The translations under genes and the position numbers were made by a program. From contig NZ_SPMY01000027.1 of the NCBI RefSeq assembly GCF_012939955.1, forward strand, positions 1-54,353: 54,353 nt of DNA. Reading direction: 5' to 3'. Positions 4,057-22,162 of this stretch are shown piece by piece. The DNA comes from Candidatus Accumulibacter phosphatis. Lineage in GTDB: Bacteria; Pseudomonadota; Gammaproteobacteria; Burkholderiales; Rhodocyclaceae. The first letter of the stretch is position 1, and the number at the start of each line of letters is the position of its first letter. The notes under the pieces were generated by a model. It worked only from the letters and a program-made list of their open reading frames with translations. It searched no databases and had not been told where the DNA came from.

Positions 4057-4129
4057 GGCTGGCCGTTCTGCAGGCAGGAGACGCAGCGAAGAACTCGTGA
4101 CGCGAGCCGTTGGCTGGGCAGCACTGCGC

Positions 4130-5335: not shown

Positions 5336-5348
5336 CGGCGCGTGGCTT

Positions 5349-5358
5349 GGGGGGGGGG
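5349..5358. repeat. Homopolymer G10 in the leader of the PLP decarboxylase gene
   Basis: Ten consecutive G on the plus strand, read as C10 in the decarboxylase messenger, 14 bases before its ATG. It replaces any recognisable ribosome-binding site at normal spacing. Tracts of this kind can change length by slippage, but the window also shows systematic homopolymer over-calling, so the true length is uncertain. Confidence 0.6.
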
Positions 5359-5371
5359 CGCTGGAGTTGAG

Positions 5372-7021: not shown

Positions 7022-7124
7022 GTTTTTGGGGTGGTGGTGATCATGTAGGAGGCACCGATTCTAGCGACCAGCGCCGTATCGACTGTGAAATTGTTCGCGC
7101 AGGCGTGAAAACTGGCGATCAGCG

Positions 7125-8906
7125 CTATTCGGTAGCTCGCCTCGTTTCCTGGCCACGCAACCACTGTTCGAGCACCATCAAGATCCATACCATCTCCCCG
7201 TAATATCCAGGGTGCTCGGAAAGATGCTCTTTGATCAGCCGCTGAACGAAGTCCGGTCGTACGATGCCGCGCGTGGCGAGACTGTGCAGCGAATCTTCGG
7301 CGAGTTTCCGCAGCGCGGGATCGCGCGTCGCCCATACGCCGAAAGGCAGTCCGAAGCCTTTCTTCGACTTGGTGATGATCTTGTCGGGCAGGTAGCCGCG
7401 TAGTGCTTCCTTGAAGAACCAGCGCAGCTTGAAGCGGCGCAGTTTCCAGTTGCTGGGCAGGGCCATCGAGAAATCGGTCAGGCGGTCCGCTAGCAAGGGG
7501 TAGCCGACGGCCAGTCCAGCCATCTCGGTTGCGCCGCGGACTTTCGGAAGATCGCTGTCGGCCAGCGTGTAGCGCCAGTCGTAGGCCAGCATGCGATTGA
7601 TCAGACTCGGCGCCCGGCACTCGCTCCAGGTTGCCTGCATATGCTTCGACGGTTCGCCGAGATCGACCTGGGCGAGAAAGTCGGCAGTCAGCACCTTCGC
7701 CGGGTCGAGCTGCATGATGAGGTTGAAACTCTGCAGGCGATCGGGCATGGGTATGCGCGAATGCCGGACATAGCCGGTTGCCTGCTTGAGGCCCGGGATG
7801 CGCCGCAGCACGCTGTCGTCCGAGCAGAGCGGCTCGATGCGCTGCCGCAGGGCTTCCGGCACCGACTGGTAGAACTCGAACAGGCGCTGCGTGGCGTAGC
7901 GCGAATTGCCGCCGAAAAGCTCGTCGCCACCGTCGCCGGCAAGCATTTTGCTGCAGCCGTCTGCGGCGGCCATTTTGGCGCAGTAGTAGGCGGGCAGGGC
8001 CGAGGAGTTGCCGAACGGTTGATCGTGATGCTGGGCGACGGCCGGGATGCTGGCCAGCAGGTCGGCCGGGGTCACGTAGTACTCGTGGTGCTGGCATCCG
8101 AAATGCTTTGCCGCCAGGCGGGCATACTCCATTTCGTCATAGCCGTCGGCAGCGAAGCCGATCGAGTAGGCGGGTGCCGCCTGGCCGGTGACCTCGCAGA
8201 GCATGCCGGCGATCGTCGAGCTATCGGTGCCACCCGAGAGGAAGGCACCGACGCGTTGGTGGCCGACAATCTCGTCGCTGACGCCCTCTCGGATCAGCTT
8301 GCGGAAAGCGTCGCGCGACGCCGCGAAGGGTTGCCGGTGGTGCTCGTCGAAGCGCAGCGGCCAGTGGCGAATTTCGTGCACACCTTGGCGGTCGACGAGC
8401 AGCGCGTTAGCCGCTGGCAGCCGGCGTACGCCCTTGAAGATCGTGCGTGGTGCCGGGATCATGTGGAAGTACAGGTAGTCGAAAATCGCCTGCGGGTCGA
8501 GCTCGTCGCTACCGCCCGGGACGCAGTCGGCACGGTCGGAGAAAGCCAGCGTACGCTCATCGACGCGATAGCAGAGCGTGTGGACCGCGAAGCGGTCGAC
8601 GGCCAGGAAGACGCATTCGCGTTTCGCATCGACGATGGCAAAGGCGTAGCTGCCGCCGATGCGGGCACACAATTCGCTGCCGCTTTCCTGCCAGGCTTTG
8701 AGCAGGCCGGCGGCCCGGCCGGCCTGGCGCGCGACGCTGGCGTCGTCCTCGTTCAGGAAACGCGGCGATCCGGTCATCGCACAGGTGGCAGTGGCATCAC
8801 GCGCAGTCAGAGCGCCGCACAGGTCGAGAGAGGCGATCAGATCGGCCGCCGACGCCGGGTCCAGCAAGCGGGTCAGATCGATCTGGCCGGAAAGCATGTC
8901 TTTCAT
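7125..8906 (-). CDS. Asparagine synthase-like amidotransferase lacking the glutaminase cysteine
   Basis: About 593 residues from the chosen ATG (MKDMLSGQID). The C-terminal two thirds is an asparagine-synthetase ATP-pyrophosphatase domain, with the PP-loop FLSGGTDSSTIAGML, the QPFGNSSALPAYY region and LAGDGGDELFGG. The N-terminal part resembles the class II glutaminase fold (GGSYAFAIVDAKRECVFLAVDRF) but lacks the Met-Cys start whose cysteine hydrolyses glutamine. Glutaminase activity is therefore unlikely, and ammonia or an amine may be the nucleophile. In exosortase A clusters such proteins are thought to modify the polysaccharide. An upstream in-frame start at 9041 would add 45 residues of no recognisable fold and was not chosen. 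It lies between the ligase gene and the VanZ/ligase-like gene in the same direction. Confidence 0.75.
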   Translation of the reverse strand: MKDMLSGQIDLTRLLDPASAADLIASLDLCGALTARDATATCAMTGSPRFLNEDDASVARQAGRAAGLLKAWQESGSELCARIGGSYAFAIVDAKRECVFLAVDRFAVHTLCYRVDERTLAFSDRADCVPGGSDELDPQAIFDYLYFHMIPAPRTIFKGVRRLPAANALLVDRQGVHEIRHWPLRFDEHHRQPFAASRDAFRKLIREGVSDEIVGHQRVGAFLSGGTDSSTIAGMLCEVTGQAAPAYSIGFAADGYDEMEYARLAAKHFGCQHHEYYVTPADLLASIPAVAQHHDQPFGNSSALPAYYCAKMAAADGCSKMLAGDGGDELFGGNSRYATQRLFEFYQSVPEALRQRIEPLCSDDSVLRRIPGLKQATGYVRHSRIPMPDRLQSFNLIMQLDPAKVLTADFLAQVDLGEPSKHMQATWSECRAPSLINRMLAYDWRYTLADSDLPKVRGATEMAGLAVGYPLLADRLTDFSMALPSNWKLRRFKLRWFFKEALRGYLPDKIITKSKKGFGLPFGVWATRDPALRKLAEDSLHSLATRGIVRPDFVQRLIKEHLSEHPGYYGEMVWILMVLEQWLRGQETRRATE

Positions 8907-9250
8907 CGCTGATTCCGAGTTTGTGGTCTTGCCGCCATGAAGCGGGTCCGGATCTCCGCCGGCCGGAGCCAACGGAGCCAGCGGTCTTGTTGGTAGTGCT
9001 TCGCAGCCGAGAAGCGTGGCGCTCGTCGCTAGCGCATCCACCGGCGAGGGCCGTATGTTCTCATAGAGTCGGCGGTCTTGGTAAGCCCATCAAAGTGCCA
9101 CCGCGCATCGCTTGTCTTGCGCAATGTGAGGGGAACCGCCTGGGCGGCCGGCCCAACGGGGCTTTTTCATACGGTGTGAGGTCAGGGCTGATCGGCCGTG
9201 GCGAGTAGTGTTACCGCGGGCAAGCACTCGAAATGACCGTTGCAGGTTCA

Positions 9251-12200
9251 TCAGTCGCTGTCTTGGCGGTCACGGTAAGCTGCCGTGCGTGCGCCCTTGG
9301 CGATGCCGGCCAACTGCTTTAACTCGGGCACGGGCTTTAGCAGCACGCCGTTGCGGCGCGGAGACCTCTCGCCACCCCATTCCAGCCAGGTCAGCAGCAG
9401 GAAGAGCAGCAGGAAGCGTGGCGTGTCGATGACGGCGCCCAGAGTCCCGATGATAAGCACTCCCGCCAGCGCCGCCAGGGTGGCTGCGGCCAGCAGGTCT
9501 CCCCGCCAGGCGCGGCTGCCTGTCCGCTTGATCGCCAGTGCCAGCAGCACGGCGAAGGCGAGCAGGCCGAGCCAGCCCAGGTCGAACAGGATGCCCACCG
9601 GCATGCTCGCGATATCCCAGGGCCAATGCACGTCGACGGCGAAGAACCACAGATCCAGGCCCTGTTCGAAGTCGCCGTTGGCGATCAGTGATTCCCCGTC
9701 GGGCTGCAGCAGGCGAACGTTGTCGACATCGACGCGAATCCCCGCGGCGTTGTGGAGCGAGAGTTTCACCGGCGACATCGCCATCCAGGCGTTGCCGCCG
9801 ACCTCGCCGCTGTTCAAGCGCAGTTCGTGCTGCTGCCAGTTTCCTCCCTGCGCGGGGGTGGTGACGCTCACACAGCGTCTCGAGGTCAGCAGCAGTTTCT
9901 CGCACAGGGAAACCGAGAGTTGACCGCCCGCCTGCGCGCTGCGCGTGTCCAGGCGCAGCAGGTACTCCTGGCCGGGCTCGATGCGGACGAACTGCTCCAT
10001 GTACAGCGGCTGACCGGTGCCGAGGCGCAGGAAGCGGTTGTCGCCCTCGCTCTCCAGGCGGTAGCTGGTCGCCTTGTCCTCGCTGCTGCGCCAGTAGTGG
10101 GTTTCCGGGTAGCGGCCGATCCCTACGCCGAATAGCGCGGTCAGGAGCCCTGGGTCGCGCATGGCCAGGGCATCGGCCCAGTGAGCCTGGCGAACGGCCA
10201 GGTCGGAGCCGCTGCTCGCCAGGCGTTCCCTGGCGAAGGAGCCGCTGTAGATCGGTGCGGCGACCGCGGCAAGCACGGCGATGAGGAGCAGCGGCGCCGC
10301 CCAGCGATAGATTCTCGGGCTGCCCAGGCGCAGGTCGCTGGCGGGCTGGAGTTGCGCCGCTGGTGCCGAGGAATCGCTTGCCGCGGTGCGGGAAGTCCTT
10401 GGCCGCCGTGGCAGGAAGGCAGCCAGGCAGATGATGATCAGCGCCACCGAGAAGCCGGCATAGCCCGCGCGCGCGAAAGTCACGGCCAGCGCGTAGCCGC
10501 TCGCCAGAAGCAGCAGGCCGCCGCCTAGACGGGCGGCGAGCGCGCGCGACTGCACGGTGAGCAACACGGCGAAAGGCAGCGCCGCGGTCAGGTAGGTCTC
10601 GATGGCGGCACCACCGGTGTGCATCAGGGAAAACGGCCCGGTCACCCGGTAGTGGTCGGTGAAGTTGAAGAGCCCCGGAAAGAGCAGGCGTTCCCAGATC
10701 ACCACGGCAACCGTTCCGGCAAGGCCCAGCACCATGCCGCGCGCAAAGGGCATGCGGATGTCGACGCCCCCGGCGGCAAAGCGTGGCATCAGTGCCCAGA
10801 GCAGCAGCGCCCAGAAGGCACCTTTGGCGACACGCAGTGCGTTGTAGGGGCTGTGGTAGTTGCTGAAACTGTTGGCATCGGGCAGCGTCAGAGGCAGCAT
10901 GCCGCGCAGCGTGCCGATGGCGAATACGCCCGCGATCAGGCACGCCACCGCAAACCCCACCACGTCACGGTATTGGTTTCGCGGCGCTGGCGGAACGCGG
11001 GCATAGGCAACGACCAGGCTGACGATGATCAGAAAATCGAATTCGTCCAGGTAGAAACGCCCGCTCCACGGCGCCAGATCGAGCAGCGGAATGGCCGCGG
11101 GAACTGCGGCCCAGAGCAGGCGCGGGTTGCGCCAGAGCGCTGCAGCGTAGGCGAGAAGCGCCAAAGCAAGAAGCAGCGGGTGGTACGGGAAGTCGATGAC
11201 GATCCAGGCCGCCAGCAGCACGGTAACGGTCAGGGCAAACCAGGCGCGTGCGGGCGGGCGGCCGTCGTTGGCTACCGTGGCAGGCGCGGTCGGCGGGGCT
11301 TCGGGCTGCGCCGTGGACGCAGAGGCCCGCGCATCGCCGGGGAAGTCGGTGGCCGCATTCCGCGTCGGAGCCGCTTGCAGGCGCCGGAGCAGCCAGCTTG
11401 CCGACCAGGTGGCGACCGCGGCGATCAGGATGTTGGTCGGGTCAGGGTGAAGGCCGGTGAGAAAAAGCTTGCTTGTTTCGATGCCGCTTGCCACCACGGC
11501 TGCGCACCAGAGAGCGGCCGCCGGCGACCAGCGGCGTAGCCAGGCGAGGACCCCGATGGGGGCGTACATCAGCGCCACCGACGCCAAGCTGAGCAGGGCA
11601 GCCTGCTCGGTAGTGTAGTAGTGGTAGTAGAAGGGCAGCCAGTGCGTCTCGGTGAGCACACTGCTGGCGCGGTCGAGGCCGTGCCATGGACGATCAAACC
11701 AACTGTTTACTGCAACCAGAGCAAGTAGATAGAGTGCAGCGAGTGGCAGCGTCAGCCGTGTTTTTGCCGCTTGGCGTTGCAGTTCGAGGCAACGCCCCTG
11801 GTCACGCCAGAGGCGCGCGCCGCCATACATCCCGACGGCACGGGTGAGTAGTGAGGCGCCCTGGCTGACGCCTGAGAAAATCAGGAATTGCGCGACTTCA
11901 ATTAGGAGACCGAGGAGTGTCCCGTAGAGCAGCGCATGACGGGTCGCCGGTTGTTGCCTGGCCGCATTGAAGTTGCCCAACATTAATCCGAGGGGTATCA
12001 CCGCCAGCACTTCGGCCAGCAGCTTGGCCGTGAAAATGATCGCCCCCCGGTCCATGGTTTGCTGGGAAAGAAACCAACCCCAGCTACTAGAATCGATTTT
12101 TGCGGCTAGTTCTGTCGTCGACAGCAGAAAGTCGAAGGGGAACAGACTGAACGCAAAGTAGCCGATGGCATAGAACTGCAACACTCGGGTGCTCAGTTGG

Positions 12201-12694
12201 CCTAGCTTCCCGGCCAGGGCGCTGAGCATGTTGAGGAACCCGGCGGACCAGTAGCACGCGGCCATGATTCCCAGCGCGCTGCCGATGCACTCCGCGATCA
12301 CGTCGTTGCGTGACACCGTGCGTGCTGGAAAAAACAACTGGGTAAACTCCACAGCCAGGGCCAGTGCAGCGCAGAAAAGCGCCGCGCCGACCAGCAAGGG
12401 CAGCTGCGCCAGTCGCGTTCTGCCGCGCGGAAACAAGGCGACGGTCAAGAAACCCACCGGTATGTATAGCACCCCGTTGGACACCCAGTCGGCCCGTCCC
12501 TGCGCGCCGATTTTCAACATCGGTAGCTGCTGGAAAGCTGCCCAGGCCTGATCGAGAGGGAGCGGGTGGAAATTCATTGGTACCAAGCTGCCGTAGACGA
12601 CCAGGCCGATATAGCCAAGCCAAGCGAGGACGAGGCGGCCTGAGCGGTCGTCAGGGCTGCCTGCGGGACGAGTTGGGGATGCAAGGTGCGACAT
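9251..12694 (-). CDS. Giant membrane protein: two VanZ-like regions fused to an O-antigen ligase/polymerase-like domain
   Basis: About 1147 residues from MSHLASPTRP. The order is as follows. A first VanZ-like region (about 20-170) has GYIGLVVYGSLVPMNF and a conserved EFTQLFFPARTVSRNDVIAE. A second related region (about 190-450) has EVAQFLIFSGVSQGASLLTR and ETSKLFLTGLHPDPTNILIA. A linker rich in Ala/Pro follows, then a polytopic O-antigen ligase/Wzy-like part (about 490-1120) with many hydrophobic segments. Within its last third lies a soluble beta-rich insertion of about 150 residues (LRLGTGQPLYMEQFVRIEPG to VDVDNVRLLQPDGESL) that looks like a carbohydrate-binding jelly roll facing the periplasm. 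It probably polymerises or ligates the polysaccharide made by the downstream genes. The reading frame extends upstream to 12976, but that part lacks protein character, so the ATG at 12694 was chosen. Confidence 0.75.
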   Translation of the reverse strand: MSHLASPTRPAGSPDDRSGRLVLAWLGYIGLVVYGSLVPMNFHPLPLDQAWAAFQQLPMLKIGAQGRADWVSNGVLYIPVGFLTVALFPRGRTRLAQLPLLVGAALFCAALALAVEFTQLFFPARTVSRNDVIAECIGSALGIMAACYWSAGFLNMLSALAGKLGQLSTRVLQFYAIGYFAFSLFPFDFLLSTTELAAKIDSSSWGWFLSQQTMDRGAIIFTAKLLAEVLAVIPLGLMLGNFNAARQQPATRHALLYGTLLGLLIEVAQFLIFSGVSQGASLLTRAVGMYGGARLWRDQGRCLELQRQAAKTRLTLPLAALYLLALVAVNSWFDRPWHGLDRASSVLTETHWLPFYYHYYTTEQAALLSLASVALMYAPIGVLAWLRRWSPAAALWCAAVVASGIETSKLFLTGLHPDPTNILIAAVATWSASWLLRRLQAAPTRNAATDFPGDARASASTAQPEAPPTAPATVANDGRPPARAWFALTVTVLLAAWIVIDFPYHPLLLALALLAYAAALWRNPRLLWAAVPAAIPLLDLAPWSGRFYLDEFDFLIIVSLVVAYARVPPAPRNQYRDVVGFAVACLIAGVFAIGTLRGMLPLTLPDANSFSNYHSPYNALRVAKGAFWALLLWALMPRFAAGGVDIRMPFARGMVLGLAGTVAVVIWERLLFPGLFNFTDHYRVTGPFSLMHTGGAAIETYLTAALPFAVLLTVQSRALAARLGGGLLLLASGYALAVTFARAGYAGFSVALIIICLAAFLPRRPRTSRTAASDSSAPAAQLQPASDLRLGSPRIYRWAAPLLLIAVLAAVAAPIYSGSFARERLASSGSDLAVRQAHWADALAMRDPGLLTALFGVGIGRYPETHYWRSSEDKATSYRLESEGDNRFLRLGTGQPLYMEQFVRIEPGQEYLLRLDTRSAQAGGQLSVSLCEKLLLTSRRCVSVTTPAQGGNWQQHELRLNSGEVGGNAWMAMSPVKLSLHNAAGIRVDVDNVRLLQPDGESLIANGDFEQGLDLWFFAVDVHWPWDIASMPVGILFDLGWLGLLAFAVLLALAIKRTGSRAWRGDLLAAATLAALAGVLIIGTLGAVIDTPRFLLLFLLLTWLEWGGERSPRRNGVLLKPVPELKQLAGIAKGARTAAYRDRQDSD

Positions 12695-13082
12695 GGCAAG
12701 CGTATTGTAGAACCGTAACCCGGCGATGGGATTTTTTCCGGCCTGTTGACCGCGTCCGGATAGCGTACGCTGCAGCGTCCGCGGCGCGATACTGTGGCTA
12801 GGCGAGGCCCAGCGACGGGTGTGCTGACTTTGTGACGCTGCCAGTCGGTGCCCGGGGCTGAATGCTTGAAGAGGACGAACAGCTTGTCGGCGATGACGCT
12901 GCTGCGGAAGAATGTGGTGTTGGCGGCTAACTGCCGGTGGGGCAGATGTGCCATGGCTTGCTTCCCATCCCGGCAAGCATTCACAGAGTCTATTGGACTG
13001 CAGCCGAGGTCGTTTGCTAGGTTGACACCTCGATCTTGAGCGATTCGGCGCCTACGCAGGCGCCCCGATGGGGAGACGGACG
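12695..13082. other. Divergent intergenic region between polysaccharide operon and regulator gene
   Basis: About 390 bases separate the minus-strand polysaccharide genes from the plus-strand AAA+ regulator gene and should hold promoters for both. A perfect stem-loop GGCGCCTacgcAGGCGCC lies at 13047-13064, directly before the GGGGAG ribosome-binding site of the regulator. I see no clear -35/-10 pair or sigma-54 element here, and no gene. Confidence 0.45.
13047..13064 (+). promoter_or_regulatory. Perfect leader hairpin before the AAA+ regulator gene
   Basis: A seven-base-pair perfect stem with a four-base loop ends six bases before the GGGGAG ribosome-binding site of the regulator gene at 13083. 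Its position could modulate translation or mRNA stability; an operator palindrome is the other possibility. The function is inference only. Confidence 0.35.
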
Positions 13083-14078
13083 ATGAGCAAGTTGCCTGAA
13101 GACCGTGGTTTCATTGGCGAATCGATAGCCTTCCGGGAGATGCTGGCGATTCTCACCAGGGTCGCAGACTACGACACCACCGTCCTGATCAGCGGCGAAA
13201 CCGGCAGTGGCAAGGAAATGGCTGCGCGTGCCATTCACTATCAGGGCAGACGTCGGGACCGACCGTTCATTCCGGTCAATTGCGGCGCACTGCCCGATCA
13301 CTTGGTCGAAAACGAGCTTTTCGGGCACGCCAGAGGTGCCTACACCGATGCGCGCGAGAGCCAGATCGGCCTGATTGCGCAGGCGCAGGGGGGCACCCTG
13401 TTCCTTGACGAAGTGGATGCACTGACCGCCAAGGCGCAGGTCAGCCTGTTGCGATTTCTGCAGGACGGTCAGTACCGTCGCCTGGGTGGCAGCCTGGTCG
13501 AAAACGCCGACGTGCGCGTTGTCGCGGCGTGTAACTGCGATCTCCCGCAAGCGATTGAACGGGGCGCGTTTCGTGCCGACCTCTACTACCGCCTCACGGC
13601 CATGGAGCTACATGTGCCGCCGCTGCGCGCACGCGGCCAGGACGCCCTGCTGCTGGCGCGCTACGTCATTGCCGAAGCCGCCAGTCAATACCACCTGGCG
13701 ATCAAGGCACTGCACCCCGATACCGTCCAGTGGTTGCTTGCCTACACCTGGCCCGGCAACGTCCGCGAGCTGCAGAATCGTATCCAGCGCGAGTTTCTGT
13801 TGTGTGACGAGCCGGAGATCCGGATCGGTGAAACCGCGCCTGACAACGATCGCCGACAGCAAGCCGATCGTCGCCTGGCGAGTCCGACGACCCTCAATTT
13901 CAACGCTGCCAAGCAGCAGGCGCTGCAGGCTTTCGAGCGCGGCCAGCTGTTGCGCCTGATGTCGGAAAGCGCCGGCAACGTTTCCAGCGCCGCCCGTCTG
14001 GCCGGCAAAGAGCGGCGCGCGCTCGGCAAGCTGCTCAAGAAGCACGGCATCGCGCCCGATGATTTTCGGCACGCCTGA
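13083..14078 (+). CDS. AAA+ enhancer-binding-type regulator without receiver domain, GAYTDA loop
   Basis: 331 residues. The AAA+ core starts almost at once: Walker A GETGSGKE (38-45), ELFGHARGAYTDA (78-90), Walker B GGTLFLDE, sensor region FRADLYYRL, and WPGNVREL near residue 225. The C-terminus carries a Fis-type helix-turn-helix (SAGNVSSAARLAGKERRALGKLL). It has the plan of a PspF-like sigma-54 activator, with no N-terminal sensor or receiver domain. The loop that contacts sigma-54 is normally GAFTGA; here it is GAYTDA, with the second Gly replaced by Asp. It may have altered or no sigma-54 activation, or be an activator of a special promoter class. The neighbouring eCIS genes have a consensus sigma-54 promoter, so it is the obvious candidate regulator. 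The start at 13083 was chosen for GGGGAG at eight bases; an ATG at 13068 adds five residues. Confidence 0.85.
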   Translation: MSKLPEDRGFIGESIAFREMLAILTRVADYDTTVLISGETGSGKEMAARAIHYQGRRRDRPFIPVNCGALPDHLVENELFGHARGAYTDARESQIGLIAQAQGGTLFLDEVDALTAKAQVSLLRFLQDGQYRRLGGSLVENADVRVVAACNCDLPQAIERGAFRADLYYRLTAMELHVPPLRARGQDALLLARYVIAEAASQYHLAIKALHPDTVQWLLAYTWPGNVRELQNRIQREFLLCDEPEIRIGETAPDNDRRQQADRRLASPTTLNFNAAKQQALQAFERGQLLRLMSESAGNVSSAARLAGKERRALGKLLKKHGIAPDDFRHA

Positions 14079-14260
14079 ACTGTCTTTGACTTCCACGCGC
14101 AGCACGCTTGCGTCGGCTGCGCTGCGGCAGACGCCTTCCTGCGCCTGAGCCGCCAAGGCGGTTTTCGCGACGTGTGCAGGCGACGCTGATCCACTTTTAT
14201 TGCCACCTTTCCACTTTCCCTTTCGCTGAGCGCCATCGCTTGCCGCGAGCGTCTTGCCCA

Positions 14261-14276
14261 TAGCACGAACATTGCT
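14261..14276 (+). promoter_or_regulatory. Possible sigma-54 promoter before the small winged-helix gene
   Basis: TAGCACGAACATTGCT matches the sigma-54 consensus TGGCACG-N4-TTGCW at every fixed position except the first G of the -24 GG pair. It lies about 34 bases before the ATG at 14310, a suitable distance. The -24 GG is normally strongly conserved, so activity is uncertain, but the same type of element, fully consensus, precedes the eCIS operon. Confidence 0.4.
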
Positions 14277-14309
14277 TTCAGATGAATGTCGTCTCAGGGA
14301 AGGGAGTCC

Positions 14310-14567
14310 ATGCGGCCGCAGCCACGCACCAGCGAAGTGGTAGACGCCATCCTGCGTTACCTGCATAGCCATCCGGATGCGGCTGACACCGTTGATGGTA
14401 TCTGCGAATGGTGGCTGCCCAGGCATTGGCGGGTCGATGCTCAGTGCGTCGAAGCGGCTCTCCTGCGCATGCAAGCGCAAGGTCTCGTGCGCCGCCGCGA
14501 GAACGCCGATCACCATGTCGTCTATCTGCGCGCCAAGATGCCTTCGGTAAGCGTTAGCGGCAAATAA
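14310..14567 (+). CDS. Small winged-helix-like hypothetical protein beside eCIS genes
   Basis: 85 residues from an ATG with a good AGGGAG ribosome-binding site; an in-frame upstream start at 14286 adds eight residues and lacks one. The pattern of helices and the final beta-like pair (AALLRMQAQGLVRRRENADHHVVYLRA) resemble a winged helix-turn-helix, with VEAALLRMQAQGLV as recognition helix region and HHVVYLRA as wing. It may be a DNA-binding regulator or a domain-swapped adaptor for the eCIS operon that begins 415 bases downstream. I do not recognise a named family. It lies between the AAA+ regulator and the eCIS genes on the same strand, so the three units may form one functional locus (inference). 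Confidence 0.6.
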   Translation: MRPQPRTSEVVDAILRYLHSHPDAADTVDGICEWWLPRHWRVDAQCVEAALLRMQAQGLVRRRENADHHVVYLRAKMPSVSVSGK

Positions 14568-14623
14568 GTCATTGATTTTAATTAGCCGCGTGTCCACTGG
14601 CGGCGTAGTGACTCGTGGCCGGT

Positions 14624-14660
14624 GGGGCAAAGCTGACCCACCCGGGGCAAATTCTACCCA
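14624..14660. repeat. Two 17-bp direct repeats with 20-bp period
   Basis: GGGGCAAAGCTGACCCA (14624-14640) and GGGGCAAATTCTACCCA (14644-14660) repeat at an interval of exactly 20 bases, close to two helical turns. The first is an imperfect palindrome of the form GGGNCA-N4-TGNCCC. They could be binding sites for the nearby enhancer-binding-type regulator, or a remnant of an IS21-like end, which often carries such GGG-CA-N-TG-CCC units. Confidence 0.5.
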
Positions 14661-14859
14661 TTGCCCTTGCAGTCATCGCTCCGGTCGCTGGCGAACGGTA
14701 TTGACGGCATTGGGGCGGCGAGCCGAGTACCTGGCGGCGAGTAGGGTGTTCCCGGAACTGCTGACGCAGCGGGTCGTTTCAGACCCACTTTGCTCGCTTC
14801 GTCGCCAAGCCCTCCCAGAAACAGCTGTCGATACATGCAGTTAATTTGCCGTCTGTAAC

Positions 14860-14875
14860 TGGCACGAGGCTTGCT
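14860..14875 (+). promoter_or_regulatory. Consensus sigma-54 promoter of the eCIS operon
   Basis: TGGCACGAGGCTTGCT matches the sigma-54 -24/-12 consensus TGGCACG-N4-TTGCW without a mismatch, with GG at 14861-14862 and GC at 14873-14874. Transcription would begin near 14886, about 97 bases before the first eCIS ATG. Such promoters need an AAA+ activator, and one is encoded 0.8 kb upstream. Confidence 0.75.
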
Positions 14876-14982
14876 TCTGAGCACTGGCAGGACGTTTGTG
14901 AAAAATTGGGCGGAGCACTGCCCGGTGTGCAGGCTGGCGGAGAGCGTAGCAAGCGAAGCAGGCAACTTCCAATGGGAGGACG

Positions 14983-15570
14983 ATGGCCAACGTATTCGGG
15001 GTGCACTCGGTGGGGAGTTCGATTGCGACTTTCCTGCGCAATACCTATCCAGCGGAGATCGGTGGTCGTGCTTTGCCGGCCTGCGATTTCGAACTGGTGA
15101 GCGCCGGACAATTGGCCAGCGACAGCGAAGAGCGCAATCGCATCACGCTGTTTCTCTATCGCCTCGCGGTGAATGAGCACTCCCGGCAAAGCGCGCACCT
15201 GCGCGCTTCCGACAGCCGCCTCGCACCCCTCGGGCTGGATCTGCACTATCTCATGAGCAGCTGGGGCATGACGCCACAGGATGAGCAGGTAGCACTCACC
15301 TGGGCGCTGCGGCAACTGCATGAATTCCCGGTGCTCGATGCCTCGTCGCTGACTCCCGATGCCGGGTGGGCGGGCGACGAGGTGATCCAGATCGTGCCCT
15401 CGGAGTTGGCCACCGAGGACTTGATGCGCATCTGGGATGCCGTCACGCCGTCCTATCGACTGTCGGTGTCCTACGTGGCGAGACTGGTACGCATCGACCC
15501 GGACAGCGACGACGCGCAGTTCCGTCCGGTGGTTAGCGGGCGTTTTGCCTTCGGCGAGGAGGTGTCGTGA
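14983..15570 (+). CDS. eCIS tail terminator/cap protein, Pvc16 (DUF4255) family
   Basis: 195 residues. The N-terminal segment (SVGSSIATFLRN), followed by NRITLFLYRLAVNEHSR, LGLDLHYLMSSW, DEQVALTWALRQLHE and the final SYRLSVSYVARLVRID, matches the Pvc16/Afp16 N-terminal family of phage-tail-like protein translocation structures. In that family the protein caps the finished tube and sheath and connects them, as gp3/gp15-type tail terminators do in phages. It is the first gene after the consensus sigma-54 promoter. A GGGAGGA ribosome-binding site lies very close to the ATG. The stop overlaps the GTG start of the next gene by four bases, which indicates coupling. Confidence 0.8.
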   Translation: MANVFGVHSVGSSIATFLRNTYPAEIGGRALPACDFELVSAGQLASDSEERNRITLFLYRLAVNEHSRQSAHLRASDSRLAPLGLDLHYLMSSWGMTPQDEQVALTWALRQLHEFPVLDASSLTPDAGWAGDEVIQIVPSELATEDLMRIWDAVTPSYRLSVSYVARLVRIDPDSDDAQFRPVVSGRFAFGEEVS

Positions 15571-16373
15571 GCGTCGTTCGTCAATTTCACGAACTCGAAC
15601 GCCTTGAGTGGCGGGTGCTCGGTGCGCTGCGGCCGGTCGATGGAACGACCGGTATCGCCTTGCGCGGCCGGCTCGAAGCGTCTGCCGTGGGCGCGCGCAT
15701 TGCGCGCAATCGCAGCGGCCTCTACGTGATCCACGAATGGTCACGCCTGCCTACGCACGCAGCGGCCTTTGACGGGCCACCGGCCCTACCTGCGCCGGGC
15801 AGCGAGCAGTTGGCAATCACGCTACGTGATCCCGGTGGGCACTATCTGCCGCGACTGGCCAGCATCGCGCTGCCGCGCGATCCGCAGGCGGTGGGTGGCA
15901 ATTCGCTTTTCGTGGCCGTGGACATCCCGCTTTACCCGAGTGCTGCGGCCGGGCTGGGCACCAACTGGACGGCCGTGCGCGCCAGCATCACGGACAACGC
16001 CGACGGCGCAGCCCTGGGCGGTGCGCTGCTGCGCGTACTGGCCGGGGCCACGGTGCTCGCGCGCGGCATGAGCGACTGGCGAGGCGAGGCGCTGGTGCCG
16101 GTGGTCGGCGTGCCGGTGACCACCTGGTCGGAGGACGAGGACGCGGTGGTGGTGACCACTATCGCGGCCACTGTTGAAGTCTATTTCGACCCGGCGCTGG
16201 GCACGCGTACGCCCATCGCCGATGTCCGTGCCGGTCGCCCGCCGACAGCGACGCCGCTGGTGGACCCGGCTGATCTCGAAAGCCGTCGCGAAGCCCTGGC
16301 GACGACGCAGCAGAACATCAGCCTCGCCGCGCGGGGCGCCCTGAATCTCAACCTGGGCCTTGATCTGCCCTAA
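15567..16373 (+). CDS. eCIS-associated protein of unknown function
   Basis: 268 residues, GTG start overlapping the Pvc16-like stop. I do not recognise a named family. The first 100 residues contain RVLGALRPVDGTTGIALRGR and GLYVIHEWSRL, followed by alternating short hydrophobic strands (LAITLRDPGGHYLPRLASIAL, SLFVAVDIPLYPS) that suggest beta-sandwich or carboxypeptidase-regulatory-like domains. The middle (WTAVRASITDNADGAALGGALLRVLAGATVLARGMSDWRGEALVPVVGV) looks like a second Ig-like or transthyretin-like domain with a bulk of Gly/Ala. The C-terminus is a short helical tail. The position between terminator and sheath suggests a structural accessory of the injection particle, for example a collar or fibre-attachment component (inference). 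The 125-bp repeat begins at its stop codon. Confidence 0.6.
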   Translation: MSVVRQFHELERLEWRVLGALRPVDGTTGIALRGRLEASAVGARIARNRSGLYVIHEWSRLPTHAAAFDGPPALPAPGSEQLAITLRDPGGHYLPRLASIALPRDPQAVGGNSLFVAVDIPLYPSAAAGLGTNWTAVRASITDNADGAALGGALLRVLAGATVLARGMSDWRGEALVPVVGVPVTTWSEDEDAVVVTTIAATVEVYFDPALGTRTPIADVRAGRPPTATPLVDPADLESRREALATTQQNISLAARGALNLNLGLDLP

Positions 16374-16494
16374 CGGTCATGACAGTGGAGACAAACCAGA
16401 TCATGAGCGCCATGACCGACCCCCTCTTCCCCTGACCCTTCTCCCGCAAGGGAGAAGGGAGGTTCGTGAGTCGCGTGCGCGACTTTCACATTAA
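16372..16494 (+). repeat. Dispersed multi-hairpin repeat, copy 1
   Basis: About 123 bases starting inside the TAA stop of the preceding gene. It consists of an inverted pair CGGTCATGAC / GCCATGACCG, a C-rich stretch, a perfect stem CCTTCTCCC-gcaa-GGGAGAAGG, and a third hairpin around GAGTCGC / GCGAC ending in TTTCACATTAA. Copies in the same orientation lie at 22038-22162 and 42118-42242, and a partial inverted copy lies at 27426-27457. Together with copy 2 it brackets the sheath-to-Pvc7 block. It probably belongs to a REP or MITE-like family of this genome. Confidence 0.85.
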
Positions 16495-16554
16495 GCAGCG
16501 AGTCCGAAATCCGGGCATTCATGGCCCGGCACGCTCGATCGAAGGAGACCTGCC

Positions 16555-18312
16555 ATGCCCGAGTACCTAGCTCCCGGCGTCTATGTCGAGGAAACCAGCT
16601 TCCGCGCCAAGTCAATCGAGGGCGTCGGCACCAGTACCACCGCGTTCGCTGGGCCTACCCGCAAAGGGCCATTCCGTGCCAGCACTGATGCCCAGGAAGT
16701 ACCCGAACTGCTGACCAGCTTCGGCGACTTCGAGCGCATCTACGGAGGTATCTCGGATCTGGCGCTCACTGGCGCCTCGCCCGACACCAACTACCTCGCT
16801 CACGCCGTGCGCGCCTTCTACAACGAGGGCGGTTCGCGACTCTATGTCTCGCGCGCAGTCGGCGCCGGGGCGACGACCGCCAGCGGTCAGGTGACCCCGG
16901 ATGGCAACACCGCCGACGAGGCGGTGCACTTCGTTTCGCGTTTCCCCGGCAGTCTCGGCAACGGCCAGGTGGTGGTGCGTGAGCAACGCGCGCCGGTGGC
17001 CGCGACGGCGATGAGCAACGCGCCGGCCGGCACTTTGCTGGTCACTGGTGCTGGCGGCGGCACCGCCTTCCACCTCAAGGTTGGCAACAACTGGCATCCG
17101 GCCACCGACCCCAGCGCTGCCGCTGAAGTGGCGGCCACGCTGGCAGCCGACACGCCGCGCATCGTCAGCCTGCTGGTGGTGGCCATCGACGATGACAACG
17201 AGGACCTCAGCTTCGAGGGGCTTGGCTTCGATCGCAGCCATCCGACCTGGGTCGGGCACGTGATGTCGGCCACCCCGGCACGCCGCGCCGATCATCTGCA
17301 GAACATGTTCGCGATCACCATTGGCGCCAACGTCAGCGCGCTGGAGTTGCGCAACGCCCTGTTTACAGGTGCCGTCACCAATGCCGCCGGCGAACTCGAG
17401 CGGGTGATTGCGCTGATCGGCGGGGGCGACGGCGCTGCGCCGGTCGCTGCCAACTACGCACTCGCCCTGGGTGAGTTGTCCGGCCTCGAAGACATCTCGA
17501 TTGTCGCTGCGCCCGGTTCCTCGGCCTACGCCGAGGCACAGGCGATCAATAACCTGTTGATCTCGCACGCCGAATCGCGCCGCGCCTACCGCATCGCAGT
17601 GCTCGACCTGCCGCGCGACCAGACACCCGGCCAGGCCCGTAGCCTGCGTGGCCTCATCGATTCGCGCTACGCGGCGGTGTATTACCCCTGGGTCGTGGTG
17701 CCCAATCCGCTGGCCCGGCCAGGCCGCGAGGACATCCCGCGCGAACTGGCGCTGCCGCCTTCGGGCTTCGTCAGCGGCATCTACGCGCGCAACGATGTCG
17801 AGCGCGGGGTCTGGAAAGCGCCGGCCAACGAAGTGGTACGCGGCGCGCTGCGCTTCGAACTGGACATCAACTTTGCCCAGCAGGAAATGCTCAATCCGAT
17901 CGGCGTGAATTGCCTGCGCTATCTCTCGGGTCGCGGCTTCCGCGTCTGGGGCGCGCGCCTGGCTTCGTCCGATCCCGAGTGGAAGTACGTGAATGTGCGG
18001 CGCTACTTCAACTACCTCGAGTCGTCGATCGACCGCGGTAGCCAGTGGGCGGTATTCGAGCCCAACGGCGAGCGGCTGTGGGCCAACATTCGACAGACGA
18101 TTTCCGACTTTCTCTACAACGAGTGGCGCAATGGTGCGCTGCTTGGCAGCAAGACCGAGGAAGCCTATTTCGTGCGCTGCGACCGCAGCACCATGACCCA
18201 GAACGACCTCGACAACGGTCGCCTGGTTTGCCTGATCGGCGTGGCGGTGATCAAGCCGGCCGAATTCGTGATCTTCCGCATCGGCCAGAAAACCGCCGAT
18301 GCCCGTGCCTGA
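16555..18312 (+). CDS. eCIS contractile sheath protein 1
   Basis: 585 residues, preceded by a strong GAAGGAGA ribosome-binding site. The N-terminal arm (YLAPGVYVEETSFRAKSIEGV, then STTAFAGPTRKGPF) is the hallmark of phage-tail and eCIS sheath proteins. The middle (about 100-330) is the variable outer part. The C-terminal domain has FELDINFAQQEMLNPIGVNCLR, GFRVWGARLASSDPEWKYVNVRR, FVRCDRSTMTQNDLDNGRL and GVAVIKPAEFVIFRI, which forms the inner sheath domain that meshes with neighbours during contraction. It corresponds to Pvc2/Afp2-type main sheath. It is followed 17 bases later by a tube gene, and the pair is paralogous to the pair 18850-20888. Confidence 0.93.
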   Translation: MPEYLAPGVYVEETSFRAKSIEGVGTSTTAFAGPTRKGPFRASTDAQEVPELLTSFGDFERIYGGISDLALTGASPDTNYLAHAVRAFYNEGGSRLYVSRAVGAGATTASGQVTPDGNTADEAVHFVSRFPGSLGNGQVVVREQRAPVAATAMSNAPAGTLLVTGAGGGTAFHLKVGNNWHPATDPSAAAEVAATLAADTPRIVSLLVVAIDDDNEDLSFEGLGFDRSHPTWVGHVMSATPARRADHLQNMFAITIGANVSALELRNALFTGAVTNAAGELERVIALIGGGDGAAPVAANYALALGELSGLEDISIVAAPGSSAYAEAQAINNLLISHAESRRAYRIAVLDLPRDQTPGQARSLRGLIDSRYAAVYYPWVVVPNPLARPGREDIPRELALPPSGFVSGIYARNDVERGVWKAPANEVVRGALRFELDINFAQQEMLNPIGVNCLRYLSGRGFRVWGARLASSDPEWKYVNVRRYFNYLESSIDRGSQWAVFEPNGERLWANIRQTISDFLYNEWRNGALLGSKTEEAYFVRCDRSTMTQNDLDNGRLVCLIGVAVIKPAEFVIFRIGQKTADARA

Positions 18313-18329: not shown

Positions 18330-18773
18330 ATGGCTGAGCGAATCACACCCTATGGCGCTTTCAATTTCGTCGTCAATTTTGACGGCAGCGACGACTTTGG
18401 CGGTTTTTCCGACGTTTCCGGCATTGGTACCGAGGTCACCGTCGCTGAATATCGCGCCGGCAGCGACAAGGAAAACCATGTGCGCAAGGTGGCTGGCGTG
18501 CACAAGGTCAGTGACGTCACTTTCAAGCGTGGCATCGTCAATTTCGACAGCCTGTGGGCGTGGATCGAGGAAACGCGTACCGCCGGCCCGGCGGCGCAGC
18601 GGACGGTCGCCGTAACGCTGCTCGACGAAGCCCACAACCCGGTGCGTACCTGGCTGCTGCGCGGCTGCATCCCGATGAAGTACACCGGCCCGACGCTGGC
18701 TGGCAAGGGCGGTGGCGACGTGGCGATGGAAGAGATCGTCCTCGCCGCTGAAGGCTTCGAGATCCAGGCCTAG
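18330..18773 (+). CDS. eCIS inner tube protein 1 (gp19/Hcp-like)
   Basis: 147 residues, the normal size of phage T4 gp19-family tail-tube proteins. Recognisable parts are PYGAFNFVVNFDG at the N-terminus, GGFSDVSGIGTEVTVAEYRAG, VSDVTFKRGIVNFDSLWAWIEE, and the C-terminal MEEIVLAAEGFEI. The fold is a beta barrel that assembles into hexameric rings and forms the rigid tube driven into the target when the sheath contracts. It corresponds to the Pvc1/Afp1 or Afp5 type. It lies directly after sheath 1 with a short gap and a GAGGGGG ribosome-binding site. Confidence 0.92.
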   Translation: MAERITPYGAFNFVVNFDGSDDFGGFSDVSGIGTEVTVAEYRAGSDKENHVRKVAGVHKVSDVTFKRGIVNFDSLWAWIEETRTAGPAAQRTVAVTLLDEAHNPVRTWLLRGCIPMKYTGPTLAGKGGGDVAMEEIVLAAEGFEIQA

Positions 18774-18849: not shown

Positions 18850-20424
18850 ATGAACGGTCTGTCCTTCGAACTGGCGCCGCCGGCCGTCGCGCCGGACCCG
18901 AACCGGGTCGATGTCGCCTGTTTCGTGGGCTACGTCGGACGACGGGCGACCGCCCTGCCAGCCAGCGTGCATGCGGCACTTGTCGAGGCGCGCTGGATCG
19001 ACGGGCCTTGGGCGCGCCCGGCGGTGGAGGTCGAGGCCCTGCTGCAGCTGCCGGTGGTGGTCGAAAGCTGGAACGCCTTCGACGCCTTGTTTGCCTGGGA
19101 TAGGCGGCCTGTCATGCAGCCGGTCGGCAGCGAGCAGCGGCTCTGCGCCAGCTATCTTGGCGCCGCGGTGCGCAGCTTCTTTGCCAATGGCGGGCGACGC
19201 GCCCTGATCGTGCGCTGCGGCGATCCCTGGCCCTACCTCGAGGCCGCCGGAAATCGCGCGGCGCAGCGGTCGACGCGGTTGGCGGCGCTTCTGGCCAATG
19301 CTTCGGATCCGATGGACCCGGCCAGCTGGATCGGCATTGGTCATCTCTCCGGCCTGCCCGAGGTGACGCTGCTGTGCCTGCCGGATTTGGCCGATATCTG
19401 CGCGACCGAACCGGCGATGGTCGACGTGGCGGTCGAGCCGCCCAACTCGCCCGAGGTCTTCGTCGAGTGTTCGAGCAACACCGTAGCAGCGGTTGAGCAG
19501 GAAGTCGGACTGCGCGACCTGGCGCCGCCGCGCGCCAATGACGAAGGCTTCCTTGCCTGGCGCAATGCCCTTGGCACTGCCCGTGAGCGCCTTGCCCGGC
19601 TGCACCGCGAGATGCTTCTCGTCGCCGCGCTGCCGCTGCCGATGCAGAACGCGCGCAATGCCGAGGCCTGGGCGCAGGCCGATTTCCACGCCTACCTGGA
19701 AAACGCCGGCGTGCTCGTGGAACCCGACAGCAGCAATGGCGGCCGTGCCGCGGCCAGCGCTTTCGTACAACTGGCCTGGCCGTGGCTCAGAACCAGCCAC
19801 AGCGCCGACCTGCCAGGCGCGCTCGAGGCACCCGAGGGGCTGCTCGCCGGCCTGCTGGCGATCAACGCGCTGGCGCGCGGCACGTTTCGTTCGGTCGCTG
19901 GCACGCCGCTGGCTGCGGTTTCCGGCAGCGAACCGGTTCTCGCATGGAGCGGCATCGCCGCGACGCCGTCCGACCGCCTTGCGCGCCGCGTGTGCGTGAT
20001 TGCTCCGTCGCCCGTGGGCTGGGTGCTGCACTCGGACGTTACTGCCAGCGCTGACGAAGCCTGGCGGGCCGGTGGTGTCAGCCGGCTAATGGGCGCGTTG
20101 TTGCGAGCTGTCCGGCGCACCGGCGAAGCGGCACTTTTCGAGGCCAGCGGAGCGGCTCTCTGGCAGCGCATCGAGCGCACACTCGGGCACTTGCTGACCG
20201 CCTTCTGGCGAGAGGGCGCGCTCGGTGGCGCTTCGCCGGAGGAGGCCTTCAGCGTGCGTTGCGATCGCAGCACGATGAGCCAGAACGATCTCGACAATGG
20301 CCGCCTGCGCGCCGAAGTCAGCATCCTGCCGGTGGCGGCGGTCGAGCGCATCAGCGTGGTACTCGACCTCACCGGTGGCGGCGCCGCACCAGCGCTGGCA
20401 GAAGCGCTGCGCGAGGTGGCCTGA
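18850..20424 (+). CDS. eCIS sheath protein 2, divergent
   Basis: 524 residues, ATG preceded by GGCGGAGCGGG. The C-terminal region has LGHLLTAFWREGALGGASPEEAFSV followed by VRCDRSTMSQNDLDNGRL, almost identical to the same segment of sheath 1, so it is clearly a sheath paralogue. The N-terminal arm motif APGVYVEE of sheath 1 is absent; the protein begins with ELAPPAVAPDPNRVDVACFVGYVGRR. It has an insertion-rich middle. In eCIS such second or third sheath proteins (Pvc3/Pvc4 type) are minor components, thought to form the ring next to the baseplate or the ends. The stop overlaps the ATG of tube 2 (ATGA), so the pair is translationally coupled. Confidence 0.85.
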   Translation: MNGLSFELAPPAVAPDPNRVDVACFVGYVGRRATALPASVHAALVEARWIDGPWARPAVEVEALLQLPVVVESWNAFDALFAWDRRPVMQPVGSEQRLCASYLGAAVRSFFANGGRRALIVRCGDPWPYLEAAGNRAAQRSTRLAALLANASDPMDPASWIGIGHLSGLPEVTLLCLPDLADICATEPAMVDVAVEPPNSPEVFVECSSNTVAAVEQEVGLRDLAPPRANDEGFLAWRNALGTARERLARLHREMLLVAALPLPMQNARNAEAWAQADFHAYLENAGVLVEPDSSNGGRAAASAFVQLAWPWLRTSHSADLPGALEAPEGLLAGLLAINALARGTFRSVAGTPLAAVSGSEPVLAWSGIAATPSDRLARRVCVIAPSPVGWVLHSDVTASADEAWRAGGVSRLMGALLRAVRRTGEAALFEASGAALWQRIERTLGHLLTAFWREGALGGASPEEAFSVRCDRSTMSQNDLDNGRLRAEVSILPVAAVERISVVLDLTGGGAAPALAEALREVA

Positions 20425-20888
20425 TGAATGACATCCCCTTGCACGTCTTTCGCTTCCACGTCAACTTCAGCCAGCAATCGCTGGCCAATCCGAGTGGCGA
20501 CGACTTGGCCCTGTGCCAGGGCGCTTTCTCCGAGTGCACCGGGCTCGAAGCGACCATGGAACCCAAGGTGATCAAGGTCGGCGGCAGCAACTACGGCGCG
20601 GTGCAACGTGCCGGCCAGGTGAGCTTCGCCACGGTGGTGCTCAAGCGCGGCATGACCGACACCCGCGACCTGTGGAACTGGTTCGCCAGAGTGGGTGCCG
20701 GCGCCTATGCCTACCGCCTGCAGGTCGAGATCGAGATGCGCAACAGCGCCGATCAGCCGGTGGTGCGCTGGGCGCTGCGCCGGGCGCTGCCGGTCAAGTT
20801 CAAGGCAGCCGACCTCAACGCCAAGGGCAGCGAGATCGGCATCGAGGAACTGCATCTGGCCCACGAGGGCCTGGTGCTCGTCAGCTGA
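20424..20888 (+). CDS. eCIS inner tube protein 2 (gp19-like, Pvc5 type)
   Basis: 154 residues, coupled by ATGA overlap to sheath 2. FRFHVNFSQQ at the N-terminus, QGAFSECTGLEATMEPKVIKVGG, AGQVSFATVVLKRGMTDTRDLWNWF and the C-terminal GIEELHLAHEGL correspond position by position to tube 1, but the sequences have diverged. Second tube proteins in eCIS (Pvc5/Afp5) form the initiating ring above the baseplate hub. Coupling to sheath 2 fits joint use of both minor components near the baseplate (inference). Confidence 0.9.
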   Translation: MNDIPLHVFRFHVNFSQQSLANPSGDDLALCQGAFSECTGLEATMEPKVIKVGGSNYGAVQRAGQVSFATVVLKRGMTDTRDLWNWFARVGAGAYAYRLQVEIEMRNSADQPVVRWALRRALPVKFKAADLNAKGSEIGIEELHLAHEGLVLVS

Positions 20889-20896
20889 GGCCGGCC

Positions 20897-22039
20897 ATGC
20901 CCGAATTTCCCGACGACCTGGTCGATACCCCCGCCACCTTCGAGACCATGACTGGTCCCAAAGTGACTGTGCCGGTGCATTTCAATCCGGCCAGCCTGCA
21001 GCACACGGTCTCCAACACCCTCAAGGAAGAGGGCCAGGGCGCCAAGAAGAAGCAGTACGTCAGTCAGACGACGGCCAAGCTGACCATGGACGTGGTTTTC
21101 GACAGCACCGACACCGGCGAGGACGTGCGCATCACCACCAACAAGATGGCGCAGCTCCTGCAGCCCGTACCCGAGGGCCAGAGCAAGAAAGTGCCGCCGG
21201 TGGTGAAGTTCAGCTGGGGCGCCTATGCCTTCACCGGCATGGTCGAGCAGTACAAGGAGACGATCGATTTCTTCGCCGCTGGCGGCCTGCCGCTGCGCTC
21301 GTCGATCAACCTCACGCTGTCGAGTCAGGACGTCACGTTCGAGGGCGGCACCAGCAGCGACCGTGCTTCGGTTGATGGCGAGCTGAGTCCCGAACCGGTG
21401 GTCGTTCCTGACGACGAGGGACCGCTCGGTGGTGCCCAGGGCGCGGCCAACAAGGCCGGCGACCCGCGTGCCGCGCGCGGCATTGCAGCGGCCAACGGCG
21501 CGGCGAGCCTGCGCTTTGGCGCCGGCGGCGGACTCGCGGTAGGGGCTTCGGCAAGTGTCGGTTTCTCGGCGGGTGCCTCGGTCGGCGCCGGCTTCTCGGC
21601 TGGCGTCGGAGCGTCGGCGGGTGGTGGTTTTTCAGCGTCTGCGTCGGCGGCGGGCTCGGCCGGGGGCAGCGCGAACCTGCTGCCCGCGGCAGCCTTCGCC
21701 GCGGGCGGCGGCGCCGGGCTGAGCGTCGGTGGTGGCGCGGGTTTGGGTGTCAGCGCCGGTGGAGGAGTCGGTGCAGGAGCCGGTTTGAGCCTTGGTGGCG
21801 GCGCATCGGCGTCCCTGTCGCTTGGCGCCGGAGCTTCGGCCAGTGCCGGTTTCTCGGGGCTGCGGGTAGAGAGCAAGCTGAGTTCACGGCCGCTCTCTAC
21901 GGGCAATCTGCTACAGAGTTCGGCGAGCATTTCCAGCACCGGCAAGGTGGCCGTCGGCGGGCGCCTGATTGACGGCGGCGGCAGCGGTTTGAAGGCCGAT
22001 GTCAGCGGTGACGCCGAGTTCGTCATCGGCTCACGCTAA
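20897..22039 (+). CDS. eCIS tube-adaptor (Pvc7-like) protein with Gly/Ala/Ser-rich tail
   Basis: 380 residues. Residues 1 to about 160 (TVPVHFNPASLQHTVSNTLKEE, KLTMDVVFDSTDTGEDVR, VPPVVKFSWGAYAFTGMVEQYKE, GLPLRSSINLTLSSQDVTFE) match the N-terminal domain of CIS tube-adaptor proteins of the Pvc7/Afp7 type, which connect tube and spike. In the family this domain is commonly followed by a LysM domain. Here residues 165-350 are instead low-complexity Gly/Ala/Ser/Val with short repeats such as GAGFSAGVGASAGGG and LSVGGGAGLGVSAGGG, and no LysM is seen. The last 50 residues regain more normal composition (KLSSRPLSTGNLLQSSASIS). The tail may be a flexible linker or a beta-stack. The repeat copy 2 starts at its stop codon, and the eCIS genes end here. 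Confidence 0.8.
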   Translation: MPEFPDDLVDTPATFETMTGPKVTVPVHFNPASLQHTVSNTLKEEGQGAKKKQYVSQTTAKLTMDVVFDSTDTGEDVRITTNKMAQLLQPVPEGQSKKVPPVVKFSWGAYAFTGMVEQYKETIDFFAAGGLPLRSSINLTLSSQDVTFEGGTSSDRASVDGELSPEPVVVPDDEGPLGGAQGAANKAGDPRAARGIAAANGAASLRFGAGGGLAVGASASVGFSAGASVGAGFSAGVGASAGGGFSASASAAGSAGGSANLLPAAAFAAGGGAGLSVGGGAGLGVSAGGGVGAGAGLSLGGGASASLSLGAGASASAGFSGLRVESKLSSRPLSTGNLLQSSASISSTGKVAVGGRLIDGGGSGLKADVSGDAEFVIGSR

Positions 22040-22162
22040 CGGTCATGACACGTGGAGACACCCCAAATCATGAAAGTCATGACCGTTTCCCTCTTCCCCC
22101 TGCCCCTTCTCCCGCAAGGGAGAAGGGAGTTTCGTGAGTCGCTGGCGCGACTTTCACATTAA
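22038..22162 (+). repeat. Dispersed multi-hairpin repeat, copy 2
   Basis: About 125 bases, same orientation and same parts as copy 1 at 16372: CGGTCATGAC with GTCATGACCG, the stem CCTTCTCCCgcaaGGGAGAAGG, and the third hairpin around GAGTCGC / GCGAC ending TTTCACATTAA. As in copy 1 it begins within the CTAA at the stop codon of the upstream gene. It marks the end of the eCIS genes; the next gene is on the other strand. Confidence 0.85.

Follow-up and report, generated by a model that had tools for sequence, protein, structure and literature searches.

A predicted sigma-54 promoter and putative enhancer module before an eCIS operon of Candidatus Accumulibacter phosphatis

Beyond a few models, little is known of when bacteria produce eCIS particles. 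What, then, could switch on the eCIS operon of Candidatus Accumulibacter phosphatis? A first-pass annotation of the window (the whole stretch of DNA analysed here, the 54,353 nucleotides of contig NZ_SPMY01000027.1) placed a consensus sigma-54 promoter before this operon, an arrangement that would tie particle production to an activator-dependent switch. We compared the site and its surroundings with related loci to see how far that reading holds and which other elements accompany the site.

The promoter before the operon

The part of the eCIS operon present on this contig spans 14983–22039 on the forward strand, as judged by Pfam and by reading of open reading frames (ORFs). It begins with Pvc16_N (14983–15570) and continues with a 268-amino-acid ORF (15567–16373), a sheath gene (16555–18312), a tube gene (18330–18773), a second sheath-like gene (18850–20424) just below the Pfam cut-off (26.4 versus 26.9 bits), a further tube-like ORF in another frame (approximately 20430–20885), and a gene for a CIS_tube-like protein that ends at 22039; Pvc16_N, the first sheath gene, and the tube gene were identified by Pfam. 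The remaining eCIS genes, including the baseplate, are found on contig C60 and are contiguous in Candidatus Accumulibacter meliphilus, the nearest named locus, whose Pvc16 is 98% identical. With the baseplate counted from that other contig, Pvc16, sheath, tube, and baseplate genes occur together, the combination by which an eCIS is recognized.

The first-pass annotation had described a mismatch-free sigma-54 consensus about 110 bases before the first eCIS gene, and both points were borne out. In a consensus scan, TGGCACGAGGCTTGCT (14860–14875, forward strand; here P2) matches TGGCACGN4TTGCW with 0 mismatches, contains the TGG-N9-TGC core with a GG-to-GC separation of 10 bp, and ends 107 bp before the start of Pvc16_N at 14983; a transcript from P2 is predicted to begin at approximately 14886. 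No other perfect match occurs in the window; at no more than 1 mismatch there are four matches, against an expectation of 0.81 from shuffled sequence, and 3 of 100 shuffles reach 4. Neither a sigma-70-like promoter nor a terminator was found in 14060–15000. The genome encodes RpoN (a 479-amino-acid ORF; PF04552, 5.4e-66).

The Pvc16-based scan of genome contigs used for comparison yielded 63 loci, with 141 stretches matching a pattern. Conservation of the −24/−12 elements in genomes sharing the locus had been set beforehand as a test, and the sigma-54 site is perfect in all six Accumulibacter loci that have retained the AAA+ gene (L036–L041). The N4 spacer varies among them (TGGT, CGGT, AGCC, AGCC, GCGT, and GGGT; AGGC in the window), as does the distance from site to gene (107, 108, 109, 261, 157, and 339 bp; 107 bp in the window). 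Alignment of the seven intergenic sequences shows conservation of the −24/−12 bases, of GATACATG, and of two palindromic GGG...CCC blocks; the core is conserved beyond its surroundings in all seven while the spacer is free, as in a sigma-54 promoter. These comparisons strongly support a function of P2 as a sigma-54 promoter transcribing the eCIS operon. Five further Accumulibacter loci (L043–L046 and L057, the last with only 1.1 kb of upstream sequence) lack the site, the AAA+ gene, the winged-helix (wHTH) gene, and the palindromes alike, so control by a P2-type site does not extend to the whole genus.

The neighboring regulatory elements

The AAA+ regulator noted upstream in the first-pass annotation proved to be a sigma-54 activator by Pfam (PF00158, 7.3e-62); its gene (13068–14078, forward strand; 336 amino acids) is not immediately upstream, however, as it ends approximately 780 bp before the site with a small winged-helix gene between. 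The protein carries a Walker A motif (GETGSGKE), the motif GGTLFLDE, and the sigma-54 contact loop GAYTDA, a variant of GAFTGA, so that PF00158, Walker A and B, and a GAFTGA-type loop, the features that define a bEBP, are all present, the loop in variant form. The GAYTDA loop in place of GAFTGA counts against the activator reading. One study counts GAYTDA and GAFTDA among the loop variants believed to remain active (PMC4641369), but another reports that RpoN was not recovered with a GAFTDA protein (PMC10714721). At the C-terminus, the helix-turn-helix (HTH) region conserves GNVS-AA-LAGKERR, as judged by eye; HTH_8 scores above the Pfam cut-off in the relatives L066 and L096, not in the protein of the window. 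A sensor domain is absent, and almost nothing lies N-terminal to the AAA+ domain. The N-terminal region is longer in several relatives (120–150 amino acids in other genera), and in the four such regions tested no Pfam family scored above cut-off.

Between the wHTH gene and P2 are two candidate enhancer palindromes. The proximal one, CGGGTCGTTTCAGACCCA (14770–14787; center approximately −107), has a perfect core; the distal one, TGGGGCAAAGCTGACCCA (14623–14640; center approximately −254), matches in 11 of 12 arm bases and is conserved. A weaker third palindrome, GGGGCAAATTCTACCC (14644–14659), has 2 mismatches in 10. The GGGTC-N6-GACCC core ends exactly 73 bp before P2 in all seven sequences (window and L036–L041), being perfect in six and carrying 1 mismatch in L038; in the same seven, a further copy (0–2 mismatches) ends 218–232 bp before the site. 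Closer to the promoter, the conserved element GATACATGCAGTTAA (14830–14844, forward strand) occupies a position that in several other loci carries an IHF-like site; GATACATG, 30 bp before the site, is invariant in the seven Accumulibacter sequences, and the IHF consensus is not matched there at 1 mismatch or fewer. Across 26 loci, an IHF-like site (at most 1 mismatch) lies 8–40 bp before the sigma-54 site in seven, compared with 1.0% in shuffles, and a palindrome ends 60–95 bp before it in 20, compared with 0.46% in shuffles, the palindrome motif itself having been derived from seven of those 26 loci.

Within its own genome the palindrome occurs at seven places at 1 mismatch or fewer, two of them at this locus. 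None of the remaining five has, within 600 bp, a GG/GC-containing site with fewer than 2 mismatches, and hence no other regulon member was found. A strict palindrome-plus-site pattern is specific but insensitive: of 369 class genomes it recovered two, this one and that of L147, in each case at a wHTH locus, gave no match when reversed, and failed to recover the remaining 11 wHTH genomes. A looser pattern recovered two of 399 order genomes, this one and L156; the L156 match falls inside a 1009-residue open frame and is taken for chance.

The small wHTH gene (14310–14567, forward strand) encodes 85 amino acids from the ATG at 14310 and belongs, by family alignment, to what we call the 'HPxAADSxEGIxxWWL' family. 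Its match to MarR_2 (2.2e-4) is below the Pfam cut-off, and the family profile matches winged-helix chains of the PDB only weakly (best 7e-5). The ATG at 14310 is a more likely start than position 14286, since the family aligns from the former and a transcript from the upstream site P1 would begin at approximately 14287. P1 (TAGCACGAACATTGCT; 14261–14276, forward strand) is a near-consensus sigma-54 site with 1 mismatch, an A at −25. In contrast to the free spacer of P2, the P1 stretch TAGCACGAWCATTGCTT is invariant in the seven sequences save one spacer base, and it contains an AGCA/TGCT inverted repeat; for these two reasons P1 may be an operator, although a weak promoter or a relic would also fit. 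As the main promoter P1 was rejected, given the A at −25 and the lack of any palindrome of at least 10/12 between the AAA+ gene and P1. The arrangement in Thauera, Cognatazoarcus, and more distant loci places the wHTH gene between the sigma-54 site and Pvc16 (the site mostly approximately 300–430 bp before Pvc16), where it is thus the first gene behind the promoter; in Accumulibacter the perfect P2 lies 3′ of the wHTH gene, with the near-site P1 kept 5′ of it.

Distribution across two sets of loci

Counts were made on the 61 Pvc16 loci with at least 500 bp of upstream DNA (L054 and L091, with short upstream DNA, were left out), scoring a site at no more than 2 mismatches with G at −24 and GC at −12, and a palindrome core at no more than 1 mismatch. 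The site is present at 22 of 25 wHTH-positive loci (exceptions L063, L066, and L096) and at none of 36 wHTH-negative loci; it occurs on the other strand of the same stretches in 0 of 61 and in 3.3% of random 600-bp windows. Similarly, the palindrome core is found at 20 of 25 wHTH-positive loci (missing from L065, L066, L082, L096, and L097), at 0 of 36 wHTH-negative loci, and in 2.9% of random windows. Fisher's test across the 61 loci gives P = 1e-13, a value that overstates independence because the loci are related; by single-linkage clustering of Pvc16, wHTH-positive loci fall into 11 of 26 clusters at 80% identity and five of 10 at 60%. The module is absent from 36 of the 61 loci. Three loci outside all counts (L005, L010, and L019) have the wHTH gene and sites with 1, 2, and 2 mismatches, and no palindrome at 1 mismatch or fewer. 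Every locus was identified through either Pvc16 or the wHTH protein, so that systems with neither are not represented.

At two loci with no wHTH match in 1.5 kb, L012 and L003, a 1-mismatch site precedes Pvc16 by 83 and 34 bp, respectively; eCIS control by sigma-54 may also exist outside the wHTH module. A second Pvc16-like gene (31% identity) occurs in the genome of the window on contig C65 (L027, L113), with Baseplate_J matches nearby; the best sigma-54 site upstream of it has 3 mismatches.

Using the AAA+ protein of the window as query (E ≤ 1e-70), we searched for activators encoded in trans in 11 wHTH-positive genomes without an activator in the fetched stretch and in seven wHTH-negative genomes. 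A relative with 47–51% identity is present in 10 of the 11 (exception, the genome of L050), and in one of the seven (that of L057), where the GKERR motif is absent from the HTH of the protein. Among the 29 activator sequences compared for motifs (L135 was left out), a changed HTH (L065, L066, L138, and L139) coincides, in this small sample, with loci that have no GGGTC palindrome; L065 instead has a palindrome with 12-bp arms and GGGGC in place of GGGTC. The activators of L082 and L146 (...CKERR and ...NKERR), in the same small sample, also depart from the exact GKERR letters.

A second set of loci was obtained with the wHTH alignment alone as query against 369 class genomes, which gave 12 matches besides the genome of the window. 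L137 is probably the genome of L066, as the two share site and activator identity, leaving 11 of the 12 as new. All 12 have a sigma-54-like site with at most 3 mismatches 52–117 bp before the wHTH match, and 11 have one with at most 2; the corresponding frequencies are 4.0% and 1.3% in 130-bp control windows taken from these loci, and the other strand gives 0 of 12. An activator relative lies within the 1.5-kb flank at seven of the 12 loci, two being cut by the end of the stretch. Behind the wHTH gene is Pvc16 in L137, L138, L139, and L145 (by BLAST) and in L140 and L148 (by Pfam), and in L142 (1769–3226) a fused VipA-VipB gene, a type VI secretion system (T6SS) sheath by Pfam, directly follows a wHTH gene that has a sigma-54-like site. 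The corresponding genes of L141, L143, and L144 are read as putative sheath genes from the YPGVYIEEVPSG motif only, those of L141 and L144 having nothing above the Pfam cut-off. L146 has a PEP-CTERM protein, just above cut-off, and the gene in L147 is not clearly assignable.

A phylum search with the wHTH protein (398 genomes) added four matches besides the genome of the window, L150–L153. The first repeats L148. L151 (2–1384) holds a second fused VipA-VipB gene directly behind a wHTH gene, with a 2-mismatch site and two perfect palindrome cores. L152 matches the wHTH protein at 2e-16 and has no site; L153 is a weak match, also with no site, and looks like a GntR/FadR-type protein. In L138–L148 together with L151, a palindrome lies 52–67 bp before the site at seven of 12 loci with at most 1 mismatch and at nine of 12 with at most 2, being missing from L138, L139, and L142.

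Control of the operon and relation to known systems

Considered together, the findings on the promoter, which we read with high confidence, and on the wider module, which we read with moderate confidence, are comparative throughout and suggest a mechanism that we regard as quite probable. RNA polymerase carrying RpoN would be held at the −24/−12 elements of P2 in a closed, silent state, and the AAA+ protein would bind the GGGTC-N6-GACCC palindromes upstream. A bend in the DNA at the conserved element just upstream of −24, made by IHF or an equivalent, would bring the activator to the polymerase, and ATP hydrolysis by the activator would then open P2. A closed complex at −24/−12, paired enhancers, a bending site, and a dedicated ATPase are the textbook components of such a promoter. 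The bending protein is a guess, as Accumulibacter has GATACATG but no good IHF match. With no sensor domain, the output of the activator would have to depend on its amount or on a partner, and the wHTH protein is the best candidate for such a partner or for a feedback regulator. We read the palindromes, activator, and wHTH gene as an enhancer module dedicated to driving contractile injection systems, and lean slightly toward the broader view that one bEBP lineage, paired GGGTC-N6-GACCC enhancers, and a wHTH partner form a portable unit placed before eCIS and T6SS operons across Pseudomonadota. The promoter proposed in the first-pass annotation is supported; the palindromes, the IHF-like element, the winged-helix gene, and the extension beyond the genus formed no part of it.

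Other readings of the same data are less probable. P2 could be a chance match without promoter function: approximately one perfect match is expected by base composition in a genome of 5.04 Mb, and of the five perfect matches other than P2 in its 149 contigs (six in all, against none for the pattern read backwards) two look intragenic. The other three precede what we take to be a flagellar-rod-like gene, a putative secreted protein, and a nitrate-reductase-like protein, all unannotated ORFs. Chance is contradicted by the conservation of P2 with free spacer and distance and by the co-occurrence counts in both locus sets, and is extremely unlikely. Alternatively, P2 could depend on sigma-54 and be driven by another activator, NtrC- or PrsR-like, with the neighboring AAA+ gene incidental, as nine Thauera-like loci that keep the site and have no AAA+ gene inside the fetched stretch might suggest. 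Eight of these nine genomes nonetheless encode the activator family elsewhere, two of them on the same contig downstream of Pvc16 (by approximately 44 kb in L042 and 36 kb in L055); moreover, the palindrome travels with the module, and the match between changed HTHs and loci without it, in the small sample available, points the same way. Control by another activator is distinctly unlikely.

It is also conceivable, if unlikely, that the wHTH protein is the real on/off regulator, for example as a repressor of P1 and P2, and that sigma-54 is only basal machinery. The wHTH gene is the most faithful companion of the site among the 61 loci, and P1, just before it, is conserved including its spacer, as an operator would be. 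Sigma-54 promoters require an activator, however, and in the alignments made, no operator common to wHTH-positive loci came to light besides the palindromes.

Activators of the PspF type consist of an AAA+ domain and an HTH without a sensor domain and are controlled by a partner. The AAA+ protein of the window has the same layout, which is why a partner protein is expected to control it; its score against the PspF model is 235 bits, below the cut-off of 443.55, and no NCBIfam model reached cut-off among the matches listed (25 of 30). Control of the T6SS by RpoN with VasH or Sfa2 is established, and for Sfa2 a putative IHF site is described between the sites of activator and promoter (PMC10482370; PMC8855297). 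The locus resembles those systems, by description rather than by sequence identity, in that a sigma-54 promoter and a dedicated bEBP encoded in the cluster would drive a contractile injection machine; it differs in its machine, an eCIS, in an activator that lacks any sensor domain, GAF or other, and in the wHTH gene and GGGTC-N6-GACCC palindromes that accompany it.

Among eCIS, the regulators named in accessible text are of GerE/LuxR type, BTAD, and RfaH (PMC8213781), and a putative, bldA-dependent regulator gene in Streptomyces coelicolor (PMC10020575). As here, a regulator gene adjoins the eCIS operon; unlike here, the accessible portions of these two papers name no sigma-54 or enhancer-binding protein. 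The first-pass annotation had doubted that sigma-54 control of an eCIS is commonly described, and we found no report of it in the literature searched, which included few subscription papers, nor in the available text of PMC8213781, PMC10482370, PMC11150451, PMC4641369, PMC10714721, PMC8855297, PMC10599522, and PMC10020575. Since such control is known for the T6SS and was found reported for no eCIS, a sigma-54 eCIS switch would be a variation on a known theme. If true, it would link eCIS regulation to T6SS regulation, with different injection machines obeying the same switch. An identifiable activator would also offer a direct handle, usable in cultivable hosts such as Thauera: removing or supplying one protein should silence or activate the operon. 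Further systems of this kind could be sought with the wHTH gene and palindromes together as a simple genomic marker.

The window also carries a repeat of approximately 130 bp at 22031–22162, with copies at 16370–16504 and 42115–42242 and a good predicted RNA fold (z −5.6, −2.6, and −2.4). The eCIS match to the relative stops at 22162, and the end of contig C60 carries the same repeat; the junction of the eCIS with the modABC-like genes that follow reflects either misassembly or a genuine rearrangement at this repeat. On the reverse strand at 697–12976 are acetyltransferase, decarboxylase, AMP-binding, asparagine-synthase-like, and VanZ-domain genes, a set of the kind known from exosortase/PEP-CTERM polysaccharide clusters.
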